Positions 10,122 to 31,903 of a stretch of 34,232 nucleotides of DNA are shown piece by piece. How positions within the stretch are numbered: position 1 is the stretch's first letter; each line of letters starts with the position of its first letter. The translations under genes were made by a program, and so were the position numbers. Below the pieces are notes generated by a model. That model saw nothing but the letters and a program-made list of their open reading frames with translations. It did no database searches and had not been told where the DNA came from. The stretch is from a virus. The stretch lies in IMG/VR virus record IMGVR_UViG_3300050015_000530, positions 1 through 34,232 of that record; one strand, given 5' to 3'.

Positions 10122-10128
10122 AATAATT

Positions 10129-10479: not shown

Positions 10480-10502
10480 CTTCCACAAACTTTTCCGCAC
10501 TT

Positions 10503-10530: not shown

Positions 10531-10533
10531 AAG

Positions 10534-11076: not shown

Positions 11077-11264
11077 CTGACGAAGAAATAAATAAACTTG
11101 ACAGAGCGAAAGAAGCAATACTTTTTGTGCTCTACATGAATCATCCAAATACTATGAAAAAAAGGGATGTTGAAGCCAAAATATTAGCAGACGGACTACT
11201 TAAAATGTCAGATAAAGAATTTGATGAATATAAAAGAAAATTTGAACTAACAAAATTAAATTAA
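11073..11264 (+). CDS. Hypothetical small protein (63 aa)
   Basis: It overlaps the HNH gene by four bases (ATGA) and lies two bases before the next gene. Helical and charged (MTDEEINKLDRAKEAILFVL ... DEYKRKFELTKLN). No family recognised. Confidence 0.7.
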   Translation: MTDEEINKLDRAKEAILFVLYMNHPNTMKKRDVEAKILADGLLKMSDKEFDEYKRKFELTKLN

Positions 11265-11266
11265 TT

Positions 11267-11698
11267 ATGAGTTTGGATTACAAAAAAATGAAAAAATGGG
11301 CAGAATCTCCAGAAGGTATTGCTGTTCGTAATGAGTTTATTGAAAAAATGGCAAAGAAATTAAAAATTGCCGAAGGTCGTTATAAACGTTTCGAAGAATG
11401 GTTGAAAAACAATGACTTTGAGGCATTGATGTTCAGAGTAATTCACGAGCATGGTGATGACTACCAGGAAAAATGTATGCACAAGGGTTATGAGCCATAT
11501 CCAAACAACAAATTAGGATTTCTCATTGACTATCTTGTACATAATTTTGAGCCAATCGAAGTTCCGGAAATCGAACCTGAACATTTTCCAAGTACGATTT
11601 ATTTTTTCAAAGGATATTATTTTCAGACGATTTGCGGACAGGGTTGCTTTCACAGGATATACAATAAAGAAGACATGCGAATGGTATTGCAAGTATGA
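11267..11698 (+). CDS. Hypothetical phage protein (143 aa)
   Basis: A soluble 143-residue protein with a helical N-terminal half (KKMKKWAESPEGIAVRNEFI ... YKRFEEWLKNNDFEALMF) and a Tyr/Phe/Cys-containing C-terminal half (YFFKGYYFQTICGQGCFHRI). It is coupled to the downstream HNH gene by an ATGA overlap. Function unknown. Confidence 0.75.
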   Translation: MSLDYKKMKKWAESPEGIAVRNEFIEKMAKKLKIAEGRYKRFEEWLKNNDFEALMFRVIHEHGDDYQEKCMHKGYEPYPNNKLGFLIDYLVHNFEPIEVPEIEPEHFPSTIYFFKGYYFQTICGQGCFHRIYNKEDMRMVLQV

Positions 11699-12147
11699 AT
11701 AAAATTAAAAATAGAATAACTGACGAAAATTTTATTGCTGTCTGTGAATCATCGACAAGTATGGCACAAGCTGCGGCAACGCTGAAAATACATTTTAATA
11801 GTTTCAAAAAAAGGGCGAAAGAATTAAATTGTTATAACACAAATCAGTCGGGAAGTGGAACGCATAAAAGGTCTGGACGACTTATACCGATTGAAGAAAT
11901 TATTTTTGAGGGAAAACATCCAGAATATCAGACGTTTAAATTAAAAAATCGGTTAGTCAAAGAAGGTTATAAAAAAAACGAGTGTGAAGAATGTGGACAA
12001 ACAGATGTTTGGAATAACGAAAAACTTGAAATGGAATTAGACCATATTGACGGAAATCGGACTAATCATTTATTAAAAAATTTAAAAATGTTATGTCCTA
12101 ATTGTCATAGTCAAACAAAAACATTTTGTGGTAAGAATAAAACATAA
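11695..12147 (+). CDS. HNH homing endonuclease
   Basis: A 150-residue protein with an N-terminal HTH-like segment (SMAQAAATLKIHFNSFKKRA) and an HNH core: FKLKNRLVKEGYKKNECEECG, LEMELDHIDGNRTNHLLKNL, MLCPNCHSQTKTFCGKN. No GTATTTAT precedes it; it depends on coupling to the upstream gene. It ends one base before the tRNA-Leu at 12149, whose anticodon loop carries an insertion. Confidence 0.9.
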   Translation: MNKIKNRITDENFIAVCESSTSMAQAAATLKIHFNSFKKRAKELNCYNTNQSGSGTHKRSGRLIPIEEIIFEGKHPEYQTFKLKNRLVKEGYKKNECEECGQTDVWNNEKLEMELDHIDGNRTNHLLKNLKMLCPNCHSQTKTFCGKNKT

Positions 12148-12148
12148 T

Positions 12149-12255
12149 GGCGTAGTGGTGGAATTGGTAGACACGCTGGACTTAGTGCTTTAATCAGAGC
12201 AAATCAAATCCAGTGGGCAGTAATGTCCGTGTGGGTTCGACTCCCATCTTCGCTA
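12149..12255 (+). tRNA. tRNA-Leu(TAG) with a 21-nt hairpin inserted in the anticodon loop
   Basis: The Leu-type D-arm, class II variable arm, T-arm GTGGG/CCCAT and acceptor GGCGTAG/CTTCGCT (one mismatch, discriminator A) are clear. Stem CTGGA/TCCAG closes a 28-base loop: CTTAG, then 21 extra bases, then AA. Removing the insert gives CTTAGAA (TAG). The insert folds as TGCTTT/AGAGCA with a four-base loop. Function requires removal of the insert or tolerance of it. Confidence 0.75.
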
Positions 12256-12259
12256 CACA

Positions 12260-12267
12260 GTATTTAT
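12260..12267 (+). promoter_or_regulatory. GTATTTAT-class element
   Basis: GTATTTAT ends 14 nt before the start codon at 12282, directly after tRNA-Leu. Confidence 0.65.
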
Positions 12268-12281
12268 AGTAAAATATAATC

Positions 12282-12614
12282 ATGACTAAAATGAAAAATC
12301 CGTTTAAGAGCAAAAAGGAAGAAGTAAGTACTCCTGCTCCCGTTGAAAAAAAACTTAAAGTTCCTGTTGACATTTTGTTGGAAGAATGTATTAAAGGTGT
12401 TATTCATGAGGTCGCAAAAGAACATCATGCAGAAGCAAAAGAAATTATCAGATTGGGAAGCGATGATGACCGCAAAGAATTTCTTAAATATTACAAAGAA
12501 GACAAAGGCAACATCTGCTGTTTAGTTCTCGACAGAATTAAACGTGATTTAATAGCCAACGGTAAGATGGCATACGATAAAGAAGCTGCATTCGGACATC
12601 CATTTATGTTGTAA
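12282..12614 (+). CDS. Hypothetical phage protein (110 aa)
   Basis: A Lys-rich N-terminus with a Pro/Val linker precedes a helical domain (VDILLEECIKGVIHEVAKEH ... DDDRKEFLKYYKED ... CCLVLDRIKRDLIANGKMAY). It is coupled to the next gene by TAATG. No family recognised. Confidence 0.75.
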   Translation: MTKMKNPFKSKKEEVSTPAPVEKKLKVPVDILLEECIKGVIHEVAKEHHAEAKEIIRLGSDDDRKEFLKYYKEDKGNICCLVLDRIKRDLIANGKMAYDKEAAFGHPFML

Positions 12615-12814
12615 TGTTACCCTACGGAAAAAGTCCAAAAATGCGGTATAATTATACCGATTGTCACCCCAAAAGACTCAGGAAGTTATTGGGCGGTGGT
12701 AGATGGGTTAATTGGTGGGAAACTGAACTTGGTGACATAGATAAGGGTGCTGAAAGGCAACGAGTTAAAGAAGAATTAAAACGAGAGGTAAATGACGAAT
12801 ATAATCAAAGGTAA
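12614..12814 (+). CDS. Hypothetical small protein (66 aa)
   Basis: A basic, Trp-containing peptide (HPKRLRKLLGGGRWVNWWET) with a charged helical tail. It starts on the previous stop (TAATG) and overlaps the next small gene. Function unknown. Confidence 0.6.
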   Translation: MLPYGKSPKMRYNYTDCHPKRLRKLLGGGRWVNWWETELGDIDKGAERQRVKEELKREVNDEYNQR

Positions 12815-12914
12815 ACAGCCAATACGTGATGAGAATGACTGTGGTTGTGGTAAGCCGTTAAAAGTGACTGACCCCCGGAGAAAAATTATTCGGAAGATAC
12901 CGAAGAAGAAATAA
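12792..12914 (+). CDS. Hypothetical very small protein (40 aa)
   Basis: MTNIIKGKQPIRDENDCGCG ... PKKK overlaps the preceding gene by 23 nt. It has a single CGC pair and a strongly basic tail. The coupled layout supports translation, but nothing shows function. Confidence 0.5.
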   Translation: MTNIIKGKQPIRDENDCGCGKPLKVTDPRRKIIRKIPKKK

Positions 12915-12950
12915 CCATCCTCATGTGGTGGAACTGATAATTTCAAAAAT

Positions 12951-13032
12951 GTCCTTGTGTTGTAATTGGTAGCCAAGATAGTTTCAAAAACTATTGTCGT
13001 AAGACGTGCGGGTTCGACTCCCGCCAAGGACA
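12951..13032 (+). tRNA. tRNA-Leu(CAA)
   Basis: The acceptor GTCCTTG/CAAGGAC is perfect with discriminator A. The anticodon arm ATAGT-TTCAAAA-ACTAT gives CAA. The class II variable arm GTCGTAAGACG and T-arm GCGGG/CCCGC are complete. The tail of the convergent Vsr-like ORF runs antisense through its 3' half. Confidence 0.88.
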
Positions 13033-13679
13033 CTAATAATAATATTTAAATATTTTATTGCGGTTTGTTCTTTGAAATATTTTTGTTGTGATGTATCAAT
13101 AATGCACAATTCAATACCATGTTCTAAACAGGCTTGAAATTTACGATTATCGTTATCTCGAATTTGAATCAATTTTTCTTGACCATAAATTGGTTCATAA
13201 TGAAATATACCGTTAAGTTCAAAAGCGAGTTTGAATTTAGGTATATAAATATCAAGTTCGGAATTAATTATATTTTTGTTATTGAATAATATTTCAAAAT
13301 CCGGATATAATAAATTTAATTGATTCTCAAGATATTTTTCAAGTTTTGACCTACGATTACCTTTAGTTTTATGTGTGTTATTATATTTTGCGGCACAAGA
13401 CCTTGAGCAAAAATTATTCTTGTTCTTACTTATTTCACTTGGGAATTTTTCGAACTCACCATTACAATTGGAACAAAATACTTTTTCTTTTTTTATTTTA
13501 GATAAATTTCTACAATTGTTTGAACAATACATACCTTTTGCTCTTGTATTAACATTCAATACTTTTTGAATTCCATGCTTTGTCATATAAAAAATATTAT
13601 TACATTTGTAACACTGACACGGTAGTTTATCTTGTGATAGTGCATTTAAAAATTCAGATTCAGAATATAATGGTTTCAT
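12984..13679 (-). CDS. Vsr/EDxHD-like homing endonuclease, copy 2
   Basis: A 231-residue paralogue of 6047-6721: N-terminal SESEFLNALSQDKLPCQCYK, zinc-finger Cys pairs (CYKCN, CSNNCRN, CSNCNGE, CSRSCAAKYNN), then NRRSKLEKYLE, NSELDIYIPKFKLAFELNG, IFHYEPIYG and NDNRKFQACLE. The last 13 or so residues (GGSRTRTSYDNSF) are antisense to tRNA-Leu(CAA) and lack counterparts in the paralogues, so the gene reads into the tRNA. GTATTTAT lies 11 nt before the start. Confidence 0.85.
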   Translation of the reverse strand: MKPLYSESEFLNALSQDKLPCQCYKCNNIFYMTKHGIQKVLNVNTRAKGMYCSNNCRNLSKIKKEKVFCSNCNGEFEKFPSEISKNKNNFCSRSCAAKYNNTHKTKGNRRSKLEKYLENQLNLLYPDFEILFNNKNIINSELDIYIPKFKLAFELNGIFHYEPIYGQEKLIQIRDNDNRKFQACLEHGIELCIIDTSQQKYFKEQTAIKYLNIIISVLGGSRTRTSYDNSF

Positions 13680-13690
13680 GATTTTTTAAT

Positions 13691-13698
13691 ATAAATAC
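13691..13698 (-). promoter_or_regulatory. GTATTTAT-class element
   Basis: On the minus strand GTATTTAT ends 11 nt before the start at 13679. TTTC/GAAA could form a weak flanking stem. Confidence 0.6.
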
Positions 13699-13759
13699 TT
13701 CGAAATTTGAATTTCTATTCCTAATGTGAAGACTTTTAAAATAAATCAATAAAATAATA

Positions 13760-13767
13760 GTATTTAT
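13760..13767 (+). promoter_or_regulatory. GTATTTAT-class element
   Basis: GTATTTAT ends 17 nt before the ATG at 13785. Confidence 0.65.
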
Positions 13768-13784
13768 AGGAAATATCAGAATTT

Positions 13785-14018
13785 ATGGTAACTTTGATGG
13801 GCAGAAAAGTATTTGAAAAACTTAACGAACAGAAAGGCAAAGTGTTAGGTAAGAAAATGGACGAAATTGATGAATTACTTCGACCATATACCAAGATATT
13901 GCCAAATGGATTTGAAGAAGTAGAAATACCGGATGCAGAAGTTGCTGAAAAATACGAAAAACTCAATCAAGAATTTCACGAGATTGTAGAAGAAATAAAT
14001 TTAATGGATAAAAACTAA
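13785..14018 (+). CDS. Hypothetical phage protein (77 aa)
   Basis: An acidic, coiled-coil-like small protein (KVFEKLNEQKGKVLGKKMDE ... VAEKYEKLNQEFHEIVEEIN). The ATG at 13785 suits the promoter spacing; an ATG at 13797 is the alternative. No family recognised. Confidence 0.7.
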   Translation: MVTLMGRKVFEKLNEQKGKVLGKKMDEIDELLRPYTKILPNGFEEVEIPDAEVAEKYEKLNQEFHEIVEEINLMDKN

Positions 14019-14022
14019 TAAA

Positions 14023-14071
14023 ATGAAAAAAGAAAGGGCATCAGTCTTCTAAGTAACTTAAACTTAGAAGA
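14023..14071 (+). promoter_or_regulatory. Nine-codon upstream ORF and 10-bp hairpin before gene 14074
   Basis: ATG at 14023 opens MKKERASVF and stops at 14050-14052. TCTTCTAAGT (14045-14054) pairs perfectly with ACTTAGAAGA (14062-14071), putting that stop codon in the 5' strand. The next start codon follows three bases after the hairpin. A ribosome on the short ORF would melt the hairpin. Confidence 0.5.
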
Positions 14072-14073
14072 TT

Positions 14074-14376
14074 ATGAAAGTAAAAACAATCAAAGATTCG
14101 ACCACCAATCGTGGTGAATTTAACCGTGCCTACAAAGCACACCTTGAAAGAAAAAATAAAATACGTTGCAGTTATTGCAAGTATCACCGTAATGAAAATC
14201 GCACCACTAATTTATATTGGGGTGATGAAAAGCACTTAAAGTATCCTAATTGGAAGCTGATTTCTAAGAACGAGAAACAGTGGATGGAAAAACCAATGAG
14301 AATTGAAATAAACCGTAGGGTTCGTTTCGATGCAATCATTGAAACCTATGAGTTCATTTTCACATTTCCAGCATGA
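14074..14376 (+). CDS. Conserved-looking phage protein with CxxC (100 aa)
   Basis: A basic protein with an RCSYCKYHRNENR motif near residues 31-43 and a Trp/Lys-rich YPNWKLISKNEKQWMEKPMR segment, then a beta-rich end. It resembles small conserved phage proteins that carry this CSYC-Y-H segment; function unknown. A nine-codon ORF and hairpin directly upstream may control translation. Confidence 0.75.
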   Translation: MKVKTIKDSTTNRGEFNRAYKAHLERKNKIRCSYCKYHRNENRTTNLYWGDEKHLKYPNWKLISKNEKQWMEKPMRIEINRRVRFDAIIETYEFIFTFPA

Positions 14377-14381
14377 CGCAT

Positions 14382-14454
14382 AGCGACATCGCTCTAATGG
14401 CTAAGACACTTCTCTCATAAGGAAGGAATCAGGGTTCGATTCCCGGTGTCGCTA
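14382..14454 (+). tRNA. tRNA with CAT anticodon (Met or Ile2)
   Basis: The acceptor AGCGACA/TGTCGCT is perfect with discriminator A. The anticodon arm CTTCT-CTCATAA-GGAAG gives CAT. The T-stem has one A/G mismatch. Elongator Met versus lysidine-modified Ile cannot be settled here; paired 1-72 argues against initiator. Confidence 0.85.
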
Positions 14455-14456
14455 CA

Positions 14457-17387: not shown

Positions 17388-18488
17388 ATGAAAGTACTTG
17401 AAAAAATCGATTGGTCAGTGTTGAACACTTACATCGACAACAACCTTATTATGGCAAACAAGCACCCAGAGTATGACATCTGGATTCTCAACTATTCTCC
17501 AAAGGTTCAGTCAAAGAAATTCTGGGATGACTACACACTGTCATGCAGAGGTTTAGTCATTGACGCTGACGGTAAAATTCTTGCACGTCCATTCAGAAAG
17601 TTCAAGAACTATGAGGAACACGACCCATCAGAAATCGACATGTCGAAGAAATTCGAAGTGTTCGAAAAAATGGATGGTTCACTCATCATATTGTTCTATT
17701 ACGAAGCACGTATGGAATGGATAATTGCCTCAAGAGGTTCATTCATTTCAGAACAAATGCTTGAAGCACAAAAAATGATTAATGCTTCAATATATGACAC
17801 ATTAAACATGCGCTTGACATACTTGTTTGAAATAATCTATCCAGAAAACCGTATCGTGGTTGACTATGGTAAGAGAAGGGAACTTGTTTTACTTACAGTA
17901 ATTGAAACGTCTACTGGTTACGAAGTGCCTTACCAAAGCGTACTTCCTACTTACTCGAAATACTTCACAGTCGTTAAGAAATACGATGTAACAATCAATA
18001 ATTTAAATGACTTAAGAAGAGTTGAGGAAGATAACAAAGAAGGATTTGTTGTGAGGTTCGAAGATGGTTTCAGAGTAAAAGTTAAGTTTGCAGAATACGT
18101 CAGATTACACGGTATTCTCACAAATGTCTCAAATTTAACGATTTGGGAACACTTGAAGAGTAACTACAACTTTGACGAACTACTTGACAGAGTTCCAGAC
18201 GAATTTTATGACTGGCTACAAAAGACTGTAAATATTTTGCAATCACAATACAATGATATCGAAAGAAATGCATTGAGAGAATTTCAAATCATTTACCATG
18301 TGAACGGTGTTACAGAACGTCCTGCATTCGCTGCGCAAGCAACTAAATCAGACTTACGTTCAATACTATTCAAGTTGTACGACAAAAGGTCATACAGTGA
18401 AATAATCTGGAAGATGATTCGACCAGTTTACAGCAAACCATTTAAAGATGGTCTCGAAGTCCAAGACTTTGAGTCAGAAGTATTATAA
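17388..18488 (+). CDS. T4 Rnl1-like RNA ligase
   Basis: A 366-residue ATP-dependent RNA ligase. Motif I is EKMDGSLI with the adenylated Lys at residue 94 (T4 Rnl1 uses Lys99), motif III/IIIa is FEIIYPENRIVVDYG, motif IV is KEGFVVRF and motif V is RVKVKFAEYVRLH. The upstream LSCRGLVID and ARPFRKFKNY segments also match the family. Such ligases rejoin tRNAs cut in the anticodon loop by host nucleases such as PrrC. It is the second gene of an operon with the methyltransferase and is closed by an intrinsic terminator. Confidence 0.93.
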   Translation: MKVLEKIDWSVLNTYIDNNLIMANKHPEYDIWILNYSPKVQSKKFWDDYTLSCRGLVIDADGKILARPFRKFKNYEEHDPSEIDMSKKFEVFEKMDGSLIILFYYEARMEWIIASRGSFISEQMLEAQKMINASIYDTLNMRLTYLFEIIYPENRIVVDYGKRRELVLLTVIETSTGYEVPYQSVLPTYSKYFTVVKKYDVTINNLNDLRRVEEDNKEGFVVRFEDGFRVKVKFAEYVRLHGILTNVSNLTIWEHLKSNYNFDELLDRVPDEFYDWLQKTVNILQSQYNDIERNALREFQIIYHVNGVTERPAFAAQATKSDLRSILFKLYDKRSYSEIIWKMIRPVYSKPFKDGLEVQDFESEVL

Positions 18489-20831: not shown

Positions 20832-20862
20832 TTTGCAAGTCCGGTATTTATTACTACATTTG
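20832..20862 (+). promoter_or_regulatory. Bacteroidota-type promoter of the Tyr/Lys tRNA block
   Basis: TTTG at 20832-20835 and TACATTTG at 20855-20862 are 19 nt apart. The AT-rich sequence upstream closely resembles that before the promoter at 1672. Confidence 0.82.
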
Positions 20863-20902
20863 TCCCTTGATATTTAAAATAAACAAGATAAAGAATAAAG
20901 CA

Positions 20903-20995
20903 ATGAGAACTTTTGGAAAATATTATTACGGTAAAAAATCTTATAAAAAGCAGTTTATAAGAATCGGGAATACTATGTCCAAAACGCAAAGTTAA
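20903..20995 (+). CDS. 30-codon leader ORF ahead of the Tyr/Lys tRNA block
   Basis: MRTFGKYYYGKKSYKK ... GNTMSKTQS is basic and Tyr/Lys-rich (three consecutive Tyr and seven Lys), matching the Tyr and Lys tRNAs downstream. GAATCGGG (20961-20968) inside it is perfectly complementary to the 5' arm of the following terminator. It is the same length as the leader at 1747. A leader peptide is more likely than a functional protein. Confidence 0.6.
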   Translation: MRTFGKYYYGKKSYKKQFIRIGNTMSKTQS

Positions 20996-21025
20996 TGGAA
21001 ACATAACAAGTGTGTAAAATACATG

Positions 21026-21053
21026 AACCCGATTCGAAAGATTCGGGTTTTTT
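21026..21053 (+). terminator. Attenuator-like intrinsic terminator 2
   Basis: AACCCGATTC pairs with GATTCGGGTT (one mismatch) around GAAA, then a T-run. The competing pairing of CCCGATTC with 20961-20968 in the leader ORF has eight perfect pairs. tRNA-Tyr begins nine bases later. Confidence 0.8.
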
Positions 21054-21061
21054 GTTTTTAT

Positions 21062-21146
21062 GTGGGTACGGTCACGGTGGTGGAGTGACTTCGGTCTGTA
21101 AAACCGAAACAAAGAAACACAGGGGGTTCGAATCCCTCTACCCTCA
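21062..21146 (+). tRNA. tRNA-Tyr(GTA), copy 1
   Basis: The anticodon arm TCGGT-CTGTAAA-ACCGA is perfect (GTA). The variable region is long as in bacterial Tyr. The T-arm is GGGGG/CCCTC. The acceptor GTGGGTA/TACCCTC has a T2/T71 mismatch. Discriminator A. Confidence 0.82.
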
Positions 21147-21152
21147 CAAATT

Positions 21153-21265
21153 GGGAATGTGGCAGAGTGGTATGTGCAGACTGAATTGGTATACTACGTG
21201 GGTTTACAACCTTAACACGTAGAAGGGGTCTGATAAGTACGTGAGTTCGAATCTCACCATCCTCA
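21153..21265 (+). tRNA. tRNA-like gene with a complex internal insertion
   Basis: The acceptor GGGAATG/CATCCTC (one A/C mismatch, discriminator A), a Ser-like D-arm GCAGAGTGGTATGTGC and a perfect T-arm GTGAG/CTCAC bracket an oversized centre. There CAGAC/GTCTG encloses a second D-like stretch AATTGGTATAC and a long arm CTACGTG/CACGTAG topped by GGTTTACAACC. The anticodon cannot be assigned. It may be a chimera of two tRNAs. Confidence 0.5.
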
Positions 21266-21270
21266 CAAAT

Positions 21271-21349
21271 GGAAATGTTGGGTGCTGGAATACCCAAGAG
21301 TCTGTAAAACTCCCGCTTCGGCATGTTGGTTCGAGTCCAACCATTTCCA
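21271..21349 (+). tRNA. tRNA-Tyr(GTA), copy 2
   Basis: The acceptor GGAAATG/CATTTCC is perfect with discriminator A. Stem GAGT/ACTC closes CTGTAAA (GTA). The variable arm CCGCTTCGGC and T-arm GTTGG/CCAAC are complete. Confidence 0.9.
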
Positions 21350-21357
21350 CAAAAATT

Positions 21358-21430
21358 GCGCTTGTAACTCAGTTGGTAGAGTAACGGACCTTTAATCCGT
21401 GAGTCGAGGGTTCGACCCCCTCCGGGCGCA
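21358..21430 (+). tRNA. tRNA-Lys(TTT) with C33
   Basis: The acceptor GCGCTTG/CGGGCGC has discriminator A. Stem ACGGA/TCCGT closes CCTTTAA, giving TTT with C instead of T at position 33. The T-arm GAGGG/CCCTC is perfect. Confidence 0.83.
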
Positions 21431-21435
21431 CATAA

Positions 21436-21506
21436 ACATCCGTAGCAAAGGGGATATGCCCCAGGTTTTTACCCTGGTGACGTGGGTTCGATTCCTACCG
21501 GATGTA
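21436..21506 (+). tRNA. tRNA-Lys(TTT)
   Basis: The acceptor ACATCCG/CGGATGT is perfect with discriminator A. The anticodon arm CCAGG-TTTTTAC-CCTGG gives TTT. The T-arm is GTGGG/CCTAC. Confidence 0.85.
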
Positions 21507-21512
21507 CAATAA

Positions 21513-21584
21513 GCATTCGTGGCAGAATGGCGATGTTCTTGACTCTTAATCAAGATGATAAGGGTTCGATTCCCTTCGAATGCA
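21513..21584 (+). tRNA. tRNA-Lys(CTT)
   Basis: The acceptor GCATTCG/CGAATGC is perfect with discriminator A. The anticodon arm CTTGA-CTCTTAA-TCAAG gives CTT. The T-arm is AAGGG/CCCTT. The convergent Vsr-like ORF ends antisense to its 3' half. Confidence 0.92.
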
Positions 21585-22242
21585 CAATATTTTTTATGAT
21601 TTTTAAATATTTTTCAGAAGTTTGTTTTTTAAAATAAATTTGTTGAGAAGTATCTATAATACATAAATCAATCTCCTTCTCTAAACATGCTTGAAATTTC
21701 CGGTTATCGTTATTTTGAATCTGCAACAATTTGTCTTGACCATAAATTGGTTCATAATGAAATATGCCATTTAATTCAAATGCGAGTTTTAATGAAGGTA
21801 TGTAAATATCCAGTTCCGAATTAATGACATCCTTGTTATTAAATAATATTTTTAGTTCAGGATATGATGATTTTAACTGTTCTTCAAGAAATATTTCAAG
21901 TTTAGACCTACGATTACCTTTAGTTTTGTGTGTATTATTATATGTTGTAGCACATGTTTGCGAGCAAAAATGATTACCATGTTTAGATTTTTTTATTTGT
22001 GATTGTTTTTTTAAAATTTCTTTATTACAATTAGTACATTTAATTTTTACTTGCGTAATTTGTGCCATAGATTGACATTGTTTGGAACAATAATTACCAA
22101 TTCTATGGTGATTTGGATTTAATGATGCTTGTAAATCATGTTTAGTTTGACAATATGTTGCATCACAATAAGCGCATTTACAAGGCAATAAATCTTTCGA
22201 TTCTGCCAATTCAAATTCTTCTTCTGTGTATAATGGTATCAT
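21550..22242 (-). CDS. Vsr/EDxHD-like homing endonuclease, copy 3
   Basis: A 230-residue paralogue of 6047-6721 and 12984-13679. It starts MIPLYTEEEFELAESKDLLP and has Cys pairs CAYCD, CSKQC, CTNCNK and CSQTCATTYNN, then NRRSKLEIFLE, NSELDIYIPSLKLAFELNG, IFHYEPIYG and NDNRKFQACLE. The final residues (SKGIEPLSS) are antisense to tRNA-Lys(CTT), so the ORF reads into the tRNA. The start lies 12 nt after a hairpin-borne GTATTTAT. Confidence 0.87.
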   Translation of the reverse strand: MIPLYTEEEFELAESKDLLPCKCAYCDATYCQTKHDLQASLNPNHHRIGNYCSKQCQSMAQITQVKIKCTNCNKEILKKQSQIKKSKHGNHFCSQTCATTYNNTHKTKGNRRSKLEIFLEEQLKSSYPELKILFNNKDVINSELDIYIPSLKLAFELNGIFHYEPIYGQDKLLQIQNNDNRKFQACLEKEIDLCIIDTSQQIYFKKQTSEKYLKIIKNIVHSKGIEPLSS

Positions 22243-26150: not shown

Positions 26151-26420
26151 ATGAATAATTGGTTCGAAAGTAGAAATCTCAAGGTATTAGCATACCAAAC
26201 AGAAACAATAAACAAAGTCAAAGATAGTCTAAGCAGTCAGGAAATAACAGTACTGGCTGCTTGTCCATCGGCAGGTAAAACAATAATGGCAATTCATTGC
26301 ATTGAGGACTTTTTGCAGAAGAATCCCGATTCAAAGGTAATTGTATTGGCACATGGTACAACGATTCTCCGTACACAATTTCATGATGTATTGGAAGAAA
26401 TCAAACCAGACTTCACATAA
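26151..26420 (+). pseudogene. Truncated SF2 helicase (N-terminal 89 aa)
   Basis: MNNWFESRNLKVLAYQTETI resembles a Q-motif-like start, followed by VLAACPSAGKTIMAIHCIED (Walker A) and KVIVLAHGTTILRTQF (motif Ia), the front end of a UvsW/type III-restriction-like SF2 helicase. The frame then stops at 26418; motifs II-VI are absent. The sequence continues in another frame as an unrelated coding segment, so this is a deletion or rearrangement remnant. It still has a good promoter and might make a short protein. Confidence 0.7.
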
Positions 26421-26466
26421 CGGCTTTGCTCCGCTTGTTGACTTGGAAGAGTCTACCGACTTCTAC

Positions 26467-26874
26467 ATGTCAGTGAATCTTGCAACAAAAATCAAAGGTC
26501 TTTCAAGTCTTGGTAAGGTTGAAGATGTAGTTACCAAACTGAAAAGTGGTGCATCGTTGAAGCCGGGTGAAGCTATTATGGCTGACCCAGTGAAAAAATA
26601 TCTTGCCGTACTTGATTCAGAACTTTACACTGCTTCAACACCTGACCTGCAGAAAGAAATGTTGAAAAACTATCTTACAAGCAAGTCAACCGAGTCAAAT
26701 AAGAAGAAGAGAAACGCTATGCAGGAAATTGCACAGATTAAATTCTCTCTTATTCTTAGCAAAAAATGGTTCAAGGAATTCAAAACTTTTGATGAGAATA
26801 CCCTGAATCTTAAACTTGACGGACAGGATTTAGCATTTACTTTCGACATGAGTGAAAAAGAAGTTAAAATCTAA
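26467..26874 (+). CDS. C-terminal fragment of an unidentified phage protein
   Basis: Coding-like sequence in this frame begins near 26417 (NGFAPLVDLEESTDFY) without a start, just where the helicase frame ends. The first usable ATG is at 26467, giving 135 residues. Helical, Lys-rich segments (LATKIKGLSSLGKVEDVVTK, PGEAIMADPVKKYLAVLD, NYLTSKSTESNKKKRNAMQE) end in a beta-rich GQDLAFTFDMSEKEVKI. Probably the tail of a larger ancestral gene. It may be expressed by reinitiation. Function unknown. Confidence 0.6.
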   Translation: MSVNLATKIKGLSSLGKVEDVVTKLKSGASLKPGEAIMADPVKKYLAVLDSELYTASTPDLQKEMLKNYLTSKSTESNKKKRNAMQEIAQIKFSLILSKKWFKEFKTFDENTLNLKLDGQDLAFTFDMSEKEVKI

Positions 26875-26948: not shown

Positions 26949-26979
26949 TTTGGTGGTAATGAAAGTTTATTTATCTTTG
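26949..26979 (+). promoter_or_regulatory. Bacteroidota-type promoter of tRNA block 3
   Basis: TTTG (26949-26952) and TATCTTTG (26972-26979) are 19 nt apart. It is followed by CCAAGTATTTAA, as at the 1672 promoter. Confidence 0.85.
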
Positions 26980-27020
26980 CCAAGTATTTAATAGAAAACG
27001 AACACATAATTTTTAGACTA

Positions 27021-27140
27021 ATGAAAACGTACAGGAACATATCAAGCATTTCAACATCGACCACAAGTCGTAATGGAAATGGTATATTCTGTTCAGATTT
27101 CACAGGCAGAAATATTATGGATGGGGTTATGGTGATATAA
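27021..27140 (+). CDS. 39-codon leader ORF ahead of tRNA block 3
   Basis: MKTYRNISSISTSTTSRNGN ... MDGVMVI is rich in Ser, Thr, Asn and Ile, the kinds of tRNA encoded downstream. GGGGTT (27123-27128) near its end is complementary to AACCCC (27175-27180), which overlaps the 5' arm of the next terminator. Same architecture as the leaders at 1747 and 20903. Confidence 0.55.
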   Translation: MKTYRNISSISTSTTSRNGNGIFCSDFTGRNIMDGVMVI

Positions 27141-27177
27141 TTGACTGGTAAATAAAAAACCACAATAAAATCAGAAC

Positions 27178-27210
27178 CCCGAAAATCCAAAGTTTTCGGG
27201 TTTTTTTTTG
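27178..27210 (+). terminator. Attenuator-like intrinsic terminator 3
   Basis: CCCGAAAA (27178-27185) pairs with TTTTCGGG (27193-27200), then a run of nine T. Its 5' arm partly overlaps the alternative pairing with the leader ORF. tRNA-Thr starts 13 nt later. Confidence 0.82.
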
Positions 27211-27222: not shown

Positions 27223-27293
27223 GTCGGGATAATTTAGGGGTAGAATGCTTGTTTGGTATTCAAGTAACACCAGTTCGAATCTGGTTCTCGGCT
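27223..27293 (+). tRNA. tRNA-Thr(GGT)
   Basis: The acceptor GTCGGGA/TCTCGGC has discriminator T, as in the other Thr tRNAs here. Stem CTTGT/TCAAG (one mismatch) closes TTGGTAT (GGT). The T-arm ACCAG/CTGGT is perfect. Confidence 0.82.
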
Positions 27294-27310
27294 CAAAATA
27301 AAATATAACT

Positions 27311-27364
27311 CTCACAGGTTATAAACACAAAATATAACTCTTGCAAGTTATATCAAACTGTGAG
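27311..27364 (+). other. Structured inter-tRNA spacer
   Basis: CTCACAG (27311) pairs with CTGTGAG (27358) and encloses hairpin ATATAACT/AGTTATAT (27332-27353). The AAAATATAACTCT segment occurs twice. No gene. Confidence 0.5.
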
Positions 27365-27390
27365 GATGTTCATTGACATGCTGGTTTTAC

Positions 27391-27465
27391 GCACGGATGG
27401 TCGAGTGGTCAAAGGCAACGGTCTGCAAAACCGTACAATCGTGGGTTCGAATCCCACTCCGTGCT
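27391..27465 (+). tRNA. tRNA-Cys(GCA)
   Basis: The acceptor GCACGGA/TCCGTGC is perfect with Cys-type discriminator T. The anticodon arm ACGGT-CTGCAAA-ACCGT and T-arm GTGGG/CCCAC are perfect. Confidence 0.95.
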
Positions 27466-27498
27466 CAAACAATATAAAGTAGTCGTATGCTATTGGAC

Positions 27499-27584
27499 AC
27501 TCCGGGCGGTTAAACACCGGAGTCAACAGAGATAGACAGACAAAATTATTGGGTGTGTCATCATCTAACCTGCTCTGACACACC
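27499..27584 (+). other. Structured inter-tRNA spacer with two strong hairpins
   Basis: ACTCCGG/CCGGAGT (27499-27523) and GGTGTGTCA/TGACACACC (27552-27584) are perfect stems. No T-run follows either on this strand. No ORF or tRNA fits. Confidence 0.5.
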
Positions 27585-27590
27585 AAAAAT

Positions 27591-27666
27591 GTTCCTGTCG
27601 TACAATAACTGGTAAGACCGCAGGCTGTTAACCTGAACAATGTAGGTTCGAATCCTACCGGGAACG
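27591..27666 (+). tRNA. tRNA-Asn(GTT), copy 1
   Basis: The acceptor GTTCCTG/CGGGAAC has discriminator G. The anticodon loop CTGTTAA gives GTT on GCAGG/CCTGA (one mismatch). The T-arm GTAGG/CCTAC is perfect. Confidence 0.88.
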
Positions 27667-27678
27667 CAAATTAATGTA

Positions 27679-27800
27679 TGAGATATCAGTCATAATAGAC
27701 CAAATTCCTTATAATGTATGATATCTCACTCAATAATGTCGGGAATAACCTACATTAAATTCAAAATTTGAGATAATGTGGAATAATCCCAACAAAATGA
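27679..27800 (+). other. Hairpin-rich spacer before the HNH gene
   Basis: TGAGATATCA (27679) and TGATATCTCA (27719) are perfect complements. CTACATT and AATGTGG pair further downstream. No gene is seen. Confidence 0.45.
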
Positions 27801-27821
27801 CGACTTTTTTATGATGTAGTA

Positions 27822-27845
27822 CTATTTATTATCATAAAATGATAA
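27822..27845 (+). promoter_or_regulatory. GTATTTAT-class element (CTATTTAT) and hairpin before the HNH gene
   Basis: CTATTTAT (27822-27829) ends 19 nt before the ATG at 27849. TTATCAT-aaa-ATGATAA forms a seven-pair hairpin between them. Confidence 0.5.
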
Positions 27846-27848
27846 GAT

Positions 27849-28310
27849 ATGGTTCTAAGAAATAAAATAATCGAACTGAGGCAACAGGGAAAAAGCTATA
27901 GAGAAATCGAAAAGGAATTACAATGTTCAAAGTCAATGATTTCCATTTATTGTAGAAAATCAGGATTGGGTGGTGATGGTAGAACGAATTTAAGTGATGA
28001 AGATAAAAGAATTGCAAATTATCAACACGTTAAATCTCATCGACAAAAAATAAAAGAAAGAGCAATTGAATATAAAGGTGGAAAATGTGAGAAATGTGGA
28101 TATAAAAAATGTAATAGAGCACTTGAATTTCATCATACGAGTCCCAATGAAAAAGATTTTACAATATCGAAATATTCTGTATTGTCTTGGAATAAAGTGA
28201 AAATTGAGTTGGATAAATGTATTTTAATTTGTGCAAATTGTCACAGAGAATTACATGATGATGAATATTTAAATAATAGGGATGTATTCCCTCTGTCTGA
28301 TAAGCAGTAG
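27849..28310 (+). CDS. HNH homing endonuclease with HTH
   Basis: A 153-residue protein. The N-terminal HTH (GKSYREIEKELQCSKSMISI) is followed by a compact HNH/treble-clef: KGGKCEKCGYKK, ALEFHHTSPNEKDFTIS, WNKVKIELDKCILICANCHR, ELHDDEY. The C-terminal FPLSDKQ and the stop are encoded by sequence that also looks like the anticodon arm of a tRNA-Ile, so the ORF ends inside that tRNA-like gene. Confidence 0.88.
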   Translation: MVLRNKIIELRQQGKSYREIEKELQCSKSMISIYCRKSGLGGDGRTNLSDEDKRIANYQHVKSHRQKIKERAIEYKGGKCEKCGYKKCNRALEFHHTSPNEKDFTISKYSVLSWNKVKIELDKCILICANCHRELHDDEYLNNRDVFPLSDKQ

Positions 28311-28354
28311 AAAGGATAGTTGGTCACACGTGGGTTCAACTCCCACCCTCCCTA
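28278..28354 (+). tRNA. Rearranged tRNA-Ile(GAT)-like gene
   Basis: The acceptor AGGGATG/CCTCCCT (one mismatch, discriminator A) and a perfect T-arm GTGGG/CCCAC are present, and loop CTGATAA (GAT) sits on TCTGT/GCAGT. Only seven bases separate the acceptor from the anticodon arm, and a D-loop-like ATAGTTGGTC lies 3' of it. The order is acceptor, anticodon, D-like, T. It overlaps the HNH end. Confidence 0.45.
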
Positions 28355-28367
28355 CAAATAATAAAAT

Positions 28368-28440
28368 GGGCGTATCGTCTAAGTGGTTAGGATGTATCTC
28401 TGATAAGGATGCGATGATGGTTCAAATCCACCTATGCCCA
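28368..28440 (+). tRNA. tRNA-Ile(GAT)
   Basis: The acceptor GGGCGTA/TATGCCC has discriminator A. The anticodon arm TATCT-CTGATAA-GGATG gives GAT. The T-stem has one A/C mismatch. A perfect AAACCTT/AAGGTTT hairpin follows at 28442-28459. Confidence 0.83.
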
Positions 28441-28482
28441 CAAACCTTGACGAAGGTTTAATGTTGCAACACGTAGTAGCCA

Positions 28483-28556
28483 TCCTATAGTAGCATATTA
28501 TCGGCAAAATGCTGCCCGTAGAAGGGTGTATGTAGGTTCAAATCCTATCGTAGGAG
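28483..28556 (+). tRNA. tRNA-like gene with six-base anticodon loop
   Basis: The acceptor TCCTATA/CGTAGGA (one mismatch, discriminator G), D-stem AGCAT/ATGCT and T-arm GTAGG/CCTAT are good. The anticodon stem TGCCC/GGGTG leaves only GTAGAA as loop, so the anticodon cannot be assigned (AGA or TAG depending on register). Confidence 0.5.
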
Positions 28557-28567
28557 CGTTACTTTTT

Positions 28568-28656
28568 GGAGAGTTGGCAGAGTCCGGCTTATTGCACCAG
28601 TCTTGAAAACTGACGACCCCGCAAGGGGTCCGGGGGTTCGAATCCCTCACTCTCCG
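28568..28656 (+). tRNA. tRNA-Ser(TGA)
   Basis: The acceptor GGAGAGT/ACTCTCC is perfect with discriminator G. Stem CAGT/ACTG closes CTTGAAA (TGA). The long variable arm GACCCCGCAAGGGGTC is strong. The T-arm is GGGGG/CCCTC. Confidence 0.95.
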
Positions 28657-28660
28657 CAAA

Positions 28661-28904
28661 GTTAAGTGCATTGGATATCATCACTTGACCTCACCGCACC
28701 TTAAAGAACTCATGACTCTTTAGTGGTGTAAAAGTTCTGGCTTGCATAAGAAGCTGCCCTAATGTTCAGTGGGATTCTTTGGGTTTGTACACTTAGTACA
28801 CGTACTTGGCAATACGACAAGACTTGATTAATTCTCCGAGACATTCCAAGGTACTTGTAATAGTAATTCCGGGAATCGTGAGTATAAGGCTCACACCAGA
28901 ACTT
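28661..28904 (+). ncRNA. Putative large structured RNA region (about 245 nt)
   Basis: The gap between tRNA-Ser and tRNA-Phe holds nested helices: GTTAAGTG/CACTTGAC (28661, 28682), TAAAGA/TCTTTA (28702, 28717), the closing stem AAGTTCTGG/CCAGAACTT (28732, 28896), GTACTTGG/CCAAgGTAC (28802, 28846) and GTGAG/CTCAC near 28878. No credible protein is present on either strand. The fold matches no RNA family I can recall. Confidence 0.5.
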
Positions 28905-28909
28905 AAATT

Positions 28910-28981
28910 GAGGACGTAGCTGAGTTGGTTTAGCGATGCCCTGAAAAGGCATAGAGACAGGTTCGATTCCTGTAGTCCCCA
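28910..28981 (+). tRNA. tRNA-Phe(GAA), imperfect acceptor
   Basis: The anticodon arm ATGCC-CTGAAAA-GGCAT and T-arm ACAGG/CCTGT are perfect (GAA). CCA is encoded at 28982-28984. The acceptor GAGGACG/AGTCCCC has two mismatches. Confidence 0.78.
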
Positions 28982-28988
28982 CCACAAT

Positions 28989-29006
28989 GTAACTCAGTGG
29001 TTGTAC
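28989..29006 (+). pseudogene. Orphan tRNA D-arm-like remnant
   Basis: TGTAACTCAGTGGTTGTAC resembles a 5' acceptor end plus D-arm with no following anticodon or T-arm. It lies between tRNA-Phe and the HNH leader. Confidence 0.3.
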
Positions 29007-29018
29007 TTTTCGTGAAAA

Positions 29019-29050
29019 CCATAGTATTTACTATAAAATAATAACTATGG
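29019..29050 (+). promoter_or_regulatory. GTATTTAC element in a hairpin that contains the start codon
   Basis: CCATAGT (29019-29025) pairs with ACTATGG (29044-29050), and the ATG at 29047 is inside the 3' strand. GTATTTAC (29024-29031) spans the stem-loop junction. Confidence 0.65.
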
Positions 29051-29559
29051 AATATAACGATTTAAAAAAGTATGTCGAACTGGGTTTTTCACACAGACAA
29101 ATGGCAATAGAATTAAACTGTTCACAAACAACAGTAAAATATTGGTTAAAAAAGTATGACTTAAAAACAAGATTTCATCTTCAAAAAAGAGAAAAAAACG
29201 TCCACTGTATTCTATGTGGCAATGAATTGAAGGATAATTCAAGAAATAGAAGTCGATGTAATTCCTGTACAACAAGAATTCGAAGATATAGAACCAAATT
29301 AAAGGCAATTGAACTTTTAGGTGGTAAATGTAATAGATGTGGATGGTCGGGAAATATTGCAGCATTTGAGTTTCATCATTCAAATGATGATAAAGAATAT
29401 GGTGTTGGGGGCATGTGGCATAAGTCTTGGGAATTAATGAAAAAGGAAGCACTAAAGTGCGAATTATTGTGTTCAAACTGCCATAGAATTGAACATACTA
29501 AATATGATAAAGATGAAAATTTCATGACAGCAGTTAATAATTATAACATGGTGACATAG
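29047..29559 (+). CDS. HNH homing endonuclease with HTH
   Basis: A 170-residue relative of 27849-28310. It has an N-terminal HTH (LGFSHRQMAIELNCSQTTVKYW), a zinc finger CILCGNEL ... RCNSCTTRIRR, then LLGGKCNRCGWSG, AAFEFHHSNDDKEYG, and LKCELLCSNCHRIEHTKYDK. The stop TAG (29557-29559) lies at positions 8-10 of the following tRNA-Phe, so the last residues (NMVT) come from its acceptor strand. Confidence 0.88.
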   Translation: MEYNDLKKYVELGFSHRQMAIELNCSQTTVKYWLKKYDLKTRFHLQKREKNVHCILCGNELKDNSRNRSRCNSCTTRIRRYRTKLKAIELLGGKCNRCGWSGNIAAFEFHHSNDDKEYGVGGMWHKSWELMKKEALKCELLCSNCHRIEHTKYDKDENFMTAVNNYNMVT

Positions 29560-29622
29560 CAAAGGTGGTCTATGCGGGGGACTGAAAATCCTTAGATGTT
29601 GGTTCGACTCCAACTGTCACCA
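29550..29622 (+). tRNA. tRNA-Phe(GAA), copy 2
   Basis: The acceptor GGTGACA/TGTCACC is perfect with discriminator A. Stem GGGGA/TCCTT closes CTGAAAA (GAA). The T-arm GTTGG/CCAAC is perfect. The first ten bases overlap the HNH ORF. Confidence 0.9.
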
Positions 29623-29631
29623 CAACAATAC

Positions 29632-29717
29632 GCAGGTGTCGCATAGTGGTCGATTGCGCCAGCCTTCCAAGCTGGAAAGATAGTATCACAACGTGGGTTC
29701 GAATCCCACTACCTGCT
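29632..29717 (+). tRNA. tRNA-Gly(TCC) with long variable region
   Basis: The acceptor GCAGGTG/TACCTGC has Gly-type discriminator T. The anticodon arm CCAGC-CTTCCAA-GCTGG and T-arm GTGGG/CCCAC are perfect. The 17-base variable region (with GAT/ATC) is unusual for Gly. A GIY-YIG cassette begins a few bases later. Confidence 0.85.
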
Positions 29718-29729
29718 CCCTGGTCGTTT

Positions 29730-29763
29730 TCTGTACTTCTCAGTATTTATTGAGAAATACAGA
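29730..29763 (+). promoter_or_regulatory. GTATTTAT element in hairpin loop before the GIY-YIG gene, copy 3
   Basis: Same 12-pair hairpin and GTATTTAT loop (29743-29750) as at 2055 and 3262. Confidence 0.75.
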
Positions 29764-29765
29764 TT

Positions 29766-30422
29766 ATGGCACGAAAAGAAAAACAATACCATTTCATTTA
29801 TAAGACAACTAACTTATTGAGTGGTAAATATTATTACGGAATGCATTCTACTAATAATCTCAATGATGGTTATTATGGTTCTGGAAGAAGATTAAGACGT
29901 TCTTTGAATAAACACGGTAAAGAAAATCATGTTGTTGAGTATATTGAATTTCTTCCGGATAGGATTACATTATGTAATCGTGAAAAAGAGATTGTTAATT
30001 TAAATGAAATTGCAAAAGAAAATTGTATGAACCTAATGATTGGTGGACAAGGCGGCTATGTATCTGATACTGCATCGAAATTAGGGTGGCAAAAAATGGA
30101 TGAAATACTTTTTAATAAATATGGATTAAATTGTCATAGTATAGTTTCAAAGAATTATTATGATTCACTTACCACAGAAGAATTGTTATTACATAAGAAA
30201 AAAATCAGTGAAGGACTAAAAAATGCTGAATTTAATTGTAAAACATTTCTCGGTAAAAACCATTCGGTAAGTACCATTAATAAAATGAGAAAGAATAAAA
30301 ACATCGGAAATAAAAATTCACAATTCGGCACTTGTTGGATAACAAATGGATGTGACAATACAAAAATCAATAGAAACGATAAACTACCAATAAATTGGAA
30401 ATATGGTAGAACTTTGAAATAA
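29766..30422 (+). CDS. GIY-YIG homing endonuclease (SegA-like), copy 3
   Basis: A 218-residue paralogue of 2091 and 3298 with the same first 20 residues and core (YHFIYKTTNLLSGKYYYGMH, GYYGSGRRLRRSLNKHG, NREKEIVNLNE). The middle third is divergent. NUMOD3-like SVSTINKMRKNKNIGNKNSQ precedes a CWIT segment. It lies between tRNA-Gly and tRNA-Ile(TAT) and stops six bases before the latter. The shared leader implies recent spread of one cassette. Confidence 0.9.
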   Translation: MARKEKQYHFIYKTTNLLSGKYYYGMHSTNNLNDGYYGSGRRLRRSLNKHGKENHVVEYIEFLPDRITLCNREKEIVNLNEIAKENCMNLMIGGQGGYVSDTASKLGWQKMDEILFNKYGLNCHSIVSKNYYDSLTTEELLLHKKKISEGLKNAEFNCKTFLGKNHSVSTINKMRKNKNIGNKNSQFGTCWITNGCDNTKINRNDKLPINWKYGRTLK

Positions 30423-30428
30423 TTAAAT

Positions 30429-30501
30429 GGTGATGTGGCGCAATGGTCAGCGCAGGTGTCTTATAAGCACAAGGTTGTGGGTTCAAGTCCCACCTTCACT
30501 A
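30429..30501 (+). tRNA. tRNA-Ile(TAT)
   Basis: The acceptor GGTGATG/CTTCACT has one mismatch and discriminator A. The loop CTTATAA gives TAT, which reads AUA directly. The T-arm GTGGG/CCCAC is perfect. Confidence 0.82.
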
Positions 30502-30502
30502 C

Positions 30503-30579
30503 AAACACAGTGCTCATAGTACGAAACTGTTATAAAGGAGCAGTTAAACTCGAAATCCATAAGGAAATCGGCTGTGTTT
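30503..30579 (+). ncRNA. Putative three-way-junction RNA between tRNAs
   Basis: AAACACAG (30503) pairs with CTGTGTTT (30572) as closing stem. TGCTC/GAGCA (30511, 30538) and a CGA..TCC/GGA..TCG hairpin (30551-30570) lie inside. The layout resembles 4460-4550 without sequence similarity. No TTCRANT loop. Confidence 0.45.
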
Positions 30580-30586
30580 ATCAAAT

Positions 30587-30658
30587 GCTTCGATAGCTCA
30601 ATGGTAGAGCAATTGACTGTTAATCAATAGGTTATGGGTTCAAGTCCCTTTCGGAGCG
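30587..30658 (+). tRNA. tRNA-Asn(GTT), copy 2
   Basis: The acceptor GCTTCGA/TCGGAGC has discriminator G. D-stem GCTC/GAGC is perfect and TTGA/TCAA closes CTGTTAA (GTT). The T-stem has one mismatch. Confidence 0.9.
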
Positions 30659-30666
30659 CAAAACAC

Positions 30667-30696
30667 TTGCAATGTTCGGATTTTTTCTTATCTTTG
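30667..30696 (+). promoter_or_regulatory. Bacteroidota-type promoter
   Basis: TTG (30667-30669) and TATCTTTG (30689-30696) are 19 nt apart. It heads the gene run from 30733. Confidence 0.75.
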
Positions 30697-30732
30697 CTTT
30701 TTAAAATAATTATTAATTAAAATTTAAAGCAA

Positions 30733-31098
30733 ATGTTACACAGAGGAAGCAGAACAATCAACGTAAAAAAAGCGGAATTAATCGCAAAAATCAATGAGAA
30801 CAAAGCAAATCACATTGTAGAGTATAACAAAGCAGTTATCGCCTACAAAGAAGAAGCACTCAAACAATTAGCCGAATTAACCAAGAAGGTTGAAGAAGGT
30901 AAATTAGGTGTTACCTTGGATTTAGTTACACCGATTGACAATTCGGCAAACTATGACAAGATAATCGAAATGTTTAATTGGGAAGTCAATGAAATCGTTG
31001 AACTCAAACAAGACGAATTCATTGAGTATGTCCAGGATGAAACCGATTTCGCTGTAAGTGCAAAATATTCAAACACATTCTACGCAAGTGTCCGATAA
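30733..31098 (+). CDS. Hypothetical phage protein (121 aa)
   Basis: A helical N-terminal half (NVKKAELIAKINENKANHIV ... EEALKQLAELTKKVEEGKLG) is followed by DLVTPIDNSANYDKIIEMFN and an acidic end. Coiled-coil-like with no enzyme motif. It has its own host-type promoter 36 nt upstream, so it may be early expressed. No family named. Confidence 0.78.
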   Translation: MLHRGSRTINVKKAELIAKINENKANHIVEYNKAVIAYKEEALKQLAELTKKVEEGKLGVTLDLVTPIDNSANYDKIIEMFNWEVNEIVELKQDEFIEYVQDETDFAVSAKYSNTFYASVR

Positions 31099-31114
31099 TC
31101 AGACTAAAATAAAA

Positions 31115-31264
31115 ATGTCAGAAACTCCCCCAAAAATAAAATTGGGGGAAGTTTTTGAAGTTGAAGGTAGACTTTACGCAATACAAGTACCTGCAACAGC
31201 AAGCCAGGAAACACGTTTAGATGGTGGAAGAGAAATTTTTGAATTTTTTTATATGCAGGAATAA
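31115..31264 (+). CDS. Hypothetical small protein (49 aa)
   Basis: I start at ATG 31115 (MSETPPKIKLGEVFEVEGRL); the frame is open further upstream but overlaps the previous gene. Beta-rich, ending in an acidic FEFFYMQE. Function unknown. Confidence 0.6.
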   Translation: MSETPPKIKLGEVFEVEGRLYAIQVPATASQETRLDGGREIFEFFYMQE

Positions 31265-31290
31265 ACGCCCATGAGGAAGTATTTAATTAT

Positions 31291-31817: not shown

Positions 31818-31818
31818 T

Positions 31819-31891: not shown

Positions 31892-31903
31892 CAAAATAAG
31901 ATT

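Follow-up and report, generated by a model that had tools for sequence, protein, structure and literature searches.

Codon-matched leaders ahead of phage tRNA arrays as candidate ribosome-mediated attenuators

The window analysed here, a stretch of 34,232 nucleotides of viral DNA, contains three units that each consist of a promoter, a short open reading frame (ORF) and a terminator, with one unit ahead of each of its tRNA arrays. On computational evidence it is very probable that each array is controlled by a ribosome-mediated transcription attenuator. The computed support covers the anatomy of the units, the match between leader codons and tRNA arrays, the competing RNA structures and their conservation. 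Ribosomes would stall in these leaders and the terminators would then be read through, and tRNA loss, caused by cleavage in host defence or by host shut-off, is inferred to be the trigger in nature, and not starvation for amino acids.

The Tyr/Lys unit and the other units of the window

Consider the unit ahead of array 2, where all features lie on the + strand. The Bacteroidota-type promoter (20832-20862) has a TTG near -33 in TTTGCAAG (20832-20839) and the -7 element TACATTTG (20855-20862). The leader ORF (20903-20995) encodes MRTFGKYYYGKKSYKKQFIRIGNTMSKTQS, i.e., 30 amino acids followed by a stop codon, and includes the sense segment YYYGKKSYKK (20921-20950) with the invariant columns Y8, K12, Y14, K15 and K16. 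Hairpin 1:2, formed by TCTTATAAA and TTTATAAGA (20939-20962), spans Tyr and Lys codons and overlaps by two bases with the antiterminator arm (region 2) GAATCGGG at 20961-20968. This arm is the perfect complement of CCCGATTC (21028-21035), the 5' arm of an intrinsic terminator (regions 3:4), AACCCGATTC-GAAA-GATTCGGGTT, which together with its T-run occupies 21026-21055 (stem 21026-21049) and has one T.T mismatch in its stem. The perfect pairing and the mismatched stem had been pointed out in a first-pass annotation of this DNA, and coordinates and bases are confirmed. Its description of a Tyr- and Lys-rich peptide ahead of tRNA-Tyr and tRNA-Lys is borne out as well: array 2 (21062-21585) runs Tyr, tRNA-like, Tyr, Lys, Lys, Lys, and ARAGORN identifies two Tyr and three Lys tRNAs, namely Tyr(GTA) at 21062 and 21271, Lys(TTT) at 21358 and 21436, and Lys(CTT) at 21513. 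The 113-nt tRNA-like gene between the two Tyr genes (21153-21265) is found by Rfam only (32.5 bits) and missed by ARAGORN; it has an apparent insertion of about 35 nt.

The proposed mechanism is as follows. Transcription would begin at the Bacteroidota-type promoter, with a ribosome trailing the RNA polymerase along the short ORF. With an ample supply of charged Tyr- and Lys-tRNAs, the ribosome would reach the stop codon and mask GAATCGGG, so that the terminator forms and the array is off. When either of these charged tRNAs is scarce, the ribosome would stall in YYYGKKSYKK, by which hairpin 1:2 would be opened and GAATCGGG left free. The free arm would pair with CCCGATTC and block the terminator, and the polymerase would read on into the genes for tRNA-Tyr and tRNA-Lys. 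Since the product of the array is the very tRNA whose shortage caused the stall, the predicted circuit provides negative feedback on tRNA supply, array by array, and such a sensor of tRNA shortage would be a natural regulator for tRNA genes.

The fold of the Tyr/Lys leader has z = -3.8, the antiterminator match in this single leader has p = 0.03 against dinucleotide shuffles, and the computed strengths of the antiterminator and terminator helices are nearly equal, -11.7 and -11.9 kcal/mol, respectively. Hairpin 1:2 is kept in 15 relatives, with one pair altered on both sides (GC in 11, AU in 4); this covariation is real, though based on one pair. Two relatives read the same GAATCGGG in another frame, as GAA TCG GGA and not as A GA ATC GGG, and because the bases are kept despite the change of frame, it is the nucleotides that are conserved there and not the peptide. 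This observation bears on the idea that the peptides act in trans, e.g., as small proteins that bind to tRNA, to a nuclease or to the ribosome, with a composition that reflects such a function. The peptides are conserved within a class, but what is conserved is mainly the sense codons and the antiterminator nucleotides, while residues past the arm are free, and we consider action in trans very improbable. With the Tyr/Lys leader as query, no relative was found in bacterial and archaeal genomes, and no match in GenBank phages.

That the architecture recurs, as the first-pass annotation stated, is true and was even understated, as the window has a third unit at 26972-27207. Unit 1 (1694-1909, +) has the promoter TATCTTTG at 1694-1701, an ORF at 1747-1839 encoding MKKLLDILAAVLMVDVLLWAAEEDKLCTVG, the arm CAGTCGGGT at 1829-1837 and a terminator at 1878-1909. 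It precedes array 1 (1952-14455, +), with Asp, Glu, Val, Leu, Ala and Trp tRNAs, tmRNA, and then Leu and Met, which is broken up by homing-endonuclease-like genes. Unit 3 (+) has the same promoter sequence TATCTTTG at 26972-26979, an ORF of 39 codons at 27021-27140 encoding MKTYRNISSISTSTTSRNGNGIFCSDFTGRNIMDGVMVI and a terminator at 27178-27200. It precedes array 3 (27223-34196, +), with Thr, Cys, Asn, Ile, Ser, Phe, Gly and Arg tRNAs up to the contig end. The antiterminator of unit 3 is weak (GGGGTT at 27123-27128 with AACCCC at 27175-27180), and for this single copy it is not significant (p = 0.39). For each of the three arrays, all its amino acids are present in its own leader. A leader of "exactly 30 codons" is correct for two leaders of the window and fails as a rule, the third having 39 and those of the collection described below 16 to about 60; with lengths that vary so widely, the exact length is rejected as a meaningful property.

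Some further features of the arrays may be mentioned. The tmRNA gene (10129-10480) lies between the Trp and the Leu/Met tRNAs of array 1, and the order is the same in relatives. The tRNA at 4556-4638 has an anticodon loop that is oversized and given as 'ccaa', and similar odd calls occur in relatives. Similar GIY-YIG-like genes lie between tRNAs at 2091-2735, 3298-3939 and 29766-30422, and HNH-like genes occur at other places in arrays 1 and 3; both kinds are likely homing endonucleases. The region 26151-26874 may represent a single gene that is broken or truncated; its second ORF matches only positions 587-736 of the 736-residue phrog_2426. Array 3 ends, in four genomes (G001, G002, G004 and G008), in tRNAs with anticodon CTA (Pyl according to ARAGORN), which are possible amber suppressors.

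Leader codons and the tRNAs behind them

Relatives were found via the genes that adjoin the leaders, chiefly ribonucleotide reductase, and via the tRNA regions of large records. A script that demands a promoter motif, a short ORF and a terminator ahead of a tRNA, and that makes no use of composition, returned 58 distinct leaders. The full collection comprises 78 leaders, taken from large phages both related and distant; many of the leaders are kin by descent, so that pooled counts overstate independence and the number of distinct lineages or partitions is perhaps six. Visual inspection of short-ORF lists played a part in choosing the 22 leaders that post-date the pipeline; in LR756502 the mechanical rules alone left one ORF per terminator. 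The frame control and the extended permutation test use manually reduced array sets for two of the pipeline leaders. Within the 110 nt before the start codon, 66 of the 78 leaders have the motif TAnnTTTG, compared to 6.5 expected, where the pipeline leaders had been preselected with the motif; it suggests a Bacteroidota host.

When the 58 pipeline leaders are taken together, the fraction of residues that belong to the downstream set is 0.51, compared to 0.26 expected. When leaders and arrays are permuted within a genome, the true pairing ranks first in 19 of 19 multi-leader genomes, which, being mutually related, are not 19 independent tests; for LR745206 the rank is 1/720. With the added leaders the true pairing ranks first in 9/9 genomes (1/5040 twice), and in all nine every array amino acid is found in its own leader. 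Over the 78 leaders, 326 of the 328 array amino acids are represented in this way.

The Tyr/Lys leader taken alone is weak evidence, since both residues are frequent in this genome, and base composition or chance in an AT-rich genome could by itself yield peptides rich in Lys, Tyr, Asn and Ile. But the other five frames are at background: for the 78 leaders, the ORF frame has a matching fraction of 0.520, against 0.22 and 0.25 for the remaining forward frames, 0.23-0.29 for the reverse frames and a background of 0.254. Furthermore, leaders rich in Pro/Gln/His, in Asp/Glu/Leu/Val/Ala/Trp or in Gly/Ala/Thr/Pro occur where the matching tRNAs follow. The Pro fraction is 0.106 when the array has tRNA-Pro and 0.001 when it has not, and the Gln fraction is 0.146 with tRNA-Gln and 0.008 without; these low values, together with 0.006 for His, place non-array amino acids below background. 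The match also depends on position. Matching residues upstream of the antiterminator arm, the place of which was set by complementarity alone, amount to 582/767 or 76%, compared to 30% expected; the value is 35% in the three codons directly before the arm, and 27% in codons 2-5, 28% within the arm and 29% beyond it, where 24-26% is expected. Permutation, residue avoidance, position and frame controls together refute the base-composition reading, to which we assign next to no probability. For the split boxes (Leu, Ser, Arg), the choice of codon agrees with the anticodon box present in 62 of 91 cases, which is suggestive only.

The first-pass annotation was to be judged by whether leader codons in homologous loci correlate with the tRNAs behind them. 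This correlation is very strong and supports the annotation: it is present in all genomes with at least two leaders, across differing partitions of the amino acids, and is confined to the ORF frame and to the stretch upstream of the antiterminator arm.

The clade of the window has a fourth class of leader, e.g., MKNLIHIQPQPQQHPQMSEWGNYA, which precedes Pro, His and Gln. Some phages partition the amino acids quite differently, and there too each leader tracks its own array. LR745206 and LR756500-LR756502, which bear such leaders, are presumably huge-phage assemblies of the kind described by Al-Shayeb et al. 2020. The leaders of LR745206 are MTTNSTHKNFSKSHKWFSNQSFGTESVLSLN before His, Phe, Trp and Lys; MKTINNTSKSSSRSSSMSEIRLYS before Arg and Ser; MNTITNIASYESYYEEGNLVRRNNYVVM before Glu and Tyr; MKNLNNISIAVIGNGAGAIREWLSYGI before Ile, Gly and Ala; MTTMNLNMTMNLTLNVVNITLCNIRPTEGSDLFREIVM before Asn, Arg, Leu, Val, Ile and Thr; MKTINVNIAPVNPQPQDQDPMRKANYVFMIS before Pro, Asp and Gln; and, added later, MTTTQQIQQQQINQTD before three Gln. 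The last is a nested case: the Gln leader, which has no separate promoter motif, is situated within the Pro/Asp array, and the leader of that array carries Gln codons as well. The order is the same in LR756502, with MTTSFQQQQQQQINRTD before four Gln. That the Glu/Tyr and Ile/Gly/Ala arrays of LR756502 stand under one leader was considered and rejected, as a second leader, MKNLHNISVGVIAIGAGSVCLWLNYVS, precedes Ile. LR756500, LR756501, LR756502 and phage Lbo-JY46 hold further leaders, e.g., MLFNSNISVKFTPAPAVAFRRGTGTGTGTCVPAGCGFEGMNG before Arg, Thr, Val, Ala, Gly and Pro, and MNNILHINLLNSLCLLGIKLIG before five Leu. There are also misfits: the Ser/Tyr-rich leader MKNFNTYYSLSLSLSQPTQELYLCAY of Lbo-JY46 precedes two Leu tRNAs only, and an Ile/Cys/Asp/Asn/Tyr block of LR756501 has no leader. 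A similar scan of Xanthomonas phage XacN1, the crAss-like cr108_1 and Bacteroides phage DAC19 gave no such units.

These partitions are relevant for what the leaders respond to. An attenuator for amino-acid starvation would answer uncharged tRNA as the trp and his leaders do, with more tRNA as a secondary outcome; the physics of stalling would be identical, and several leaders sense many amino acids together. However, tRNA genes as output would not relieve a shortage of amino acids, and the partition tracks tRNA gene neighbourhoods and not biosynthetic families, as for His/Phe/Trp/Lys and Pro/Asp/Gln in LR745206. We therefore regard starvation as an unlikely trigger, tRNA loss being preferred.

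The leaders might, on the other hand, be independent small genes, each transcribed into a self-terminated short mRNA or sRNA that has nothing to do with the tRNAs behind it, which are transcribed separately. Indeed, all units have a terminator and most their own promoter, and the distance from terminator to first tRNA is often 8-40 nt. But the composition follows the array in every genome, a plain terminator needs no second complementary arm, and between the T-run and tRNA-Tyr in the window there is no room for a promoter. In addition, 42 of 43 such units in the tRNA-bearing regions scanned lie at most 700 nt upstream of a tRNA, a figure that counts as supporting evidence only, since tRNAs are dense in these regions. 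Small genes are accordingly as improbable as peptides that act in trans.

Antiterminator, terminator and ribosome position

An intrinsic terminator between leader ORF and tRNA array is what an attenuator has, and it is found here. In 44 of the 58 pipeline leaders, the 5' arm of the terminator has a complementary arm in the part of the transcript that ends with the stop codon, and the match is better than in shuffles at p <= 0.05; the antiterminator is weak in some others besides the third leader of the window. The pairing score between arm and terminator is 20.8 for own and 14.8 for swapped combinations, and none of 20,000 permutations scores as high. The arms co-vary between leaders, as in GAATCGGG/CCCGATTC, CAGTCGGGT/ACCCGACTG, GTGAAGATCAG/CTGATCTTCAC, GTTGCTTGGG/CCCAAGCAAT and CTGAGGGTT/AACCCTCAG.

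To model the switch, we masked the bases under and behind the ribosome, assumed its footprint and computed probabilities at equilibrium. A ribosome stalled in the upstream segment gives the antiterminator a mean predicted probability of 0.94; when it is at the stop codon, the probability is 0.00 for the antiterminator and 0.95 for the terminator. In the model, the structure thus switches with the position of the ribosome. The sense codons of many leaders stop close to the codon from which the footprint starts to cover the arm.

In naked, i.e., untranslated, RNA the antiterminator is favoured in most leaders (mean 0.77), and from this follows that the absence of translation would open the array too. 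It is less favoured in leaders where upstream pairing shields the arm, among them some of the Pro/His/Gln and Tyr/Lys classes. The behaviour of naked RNA speaks for a switch that responds to the shutdown of translation, where any untranslated leader opens its array and the codon content is fine tuning. But the sense codons occupy the very stretch in which stalling frees the arm, other residues are avoided, and several leaders have a protecting 1:2 hairpin, so that a switch of this kind seems improbable, slightly more so than a response to starvation.

Known attenuators and phage tRNAs

Like the attenuators of the amino-acid operons (trp, his, leu, thr, ilv, phe), the proposed tRNA attenuators have a short ORF loaded with particular codons, mutually exclusive antiterminator and terminator, and ribosome position as the sensor, and in some classes also a protecting 1:2 hairpin. 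Unlike them, they would control phage tRNA arrays and not biosynthetic enzymes, and a single leader would sense from one to eight amino acids, namely those of the tRNA set behind it. The genes behind the leaders encode tRNAs, and none of the Rfam leader families (His_leader, Phe_leader and others) matches at gathering score; these units do not belong with the leaders of amino-acid biosynthesis. T-box riboswitches, too, respond to uncharged tRNA, and their target is often an intrinsic terminator; they contact the tRNA directly, with no need for translation, and the genes they regulate are synthetase or amino-acid genes. A T-box identity is rejected, as the Rfam T-box model has no match at gathering score in the whole window, nor at E <= 1 in the Tyr/Lys leader, and as the in-frame codon signal argues for translation.

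The window also has a gene for a T4 Rnl1-type RNA ligase (17388-18488), situated between arrays 1 and 2. In T4, Rnl1 is a tRNA-repair enzyme. The ligase is a point of likeness to counter-defence by phage tRNAs, and ligase and tmRNA fit a phage that expects damage to translation. Phage tRNAs counter tRNA-cleaving immunity and take the place of host tRNAs (eLife 2023;12:e85183, PMC10264068; PMC11555353; PMC12409363), and as far as the abstracts of these three papers state, they treat the function of the tRNAs and not their regulation. As many as 67 tRNAs have been described in huge phages (Al-Shayeb et al. 2020, PMC7162821), in a text that does not mention attenuation or leader peptides. In a library of open-access papers, no earlier report was found of leader-peptide attenuation of tRNA genes or of phage tRNAs. 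The class of mechanism is already known; its target and circuit appear to be new.

If true, the proposal extends attenuation from the supply of amino acids to the supply of tRNA. The phage genome itself would seemingly state when each set of tRNAs is wanted, namely when the codons for that set stall a ribosome, and it could be predicted which tRNA-cleaving defence induces which tRNAs. We lean towards the wider view that large phages have a handful of tRNA regulons, each with a codon-matched attenuator, that the tRNAs made follow what is lost to host defence or shut-off, and that attenuators can nest. The leaders would then be a readout, from sequence alone, of how phage tRNA genes are grouped into transcription units.

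Such leaders have escaped annotation, as in the GenBank record of Lbo-JY46, where no leader is annotated. The stated host of this phage (PP438436.1, L143) is a cyanobacterium, Leptolyngbya, and 3/3 of its leaders have Bacteroidota-type TAnnTTTG promoters; the host assignment deserves a check.
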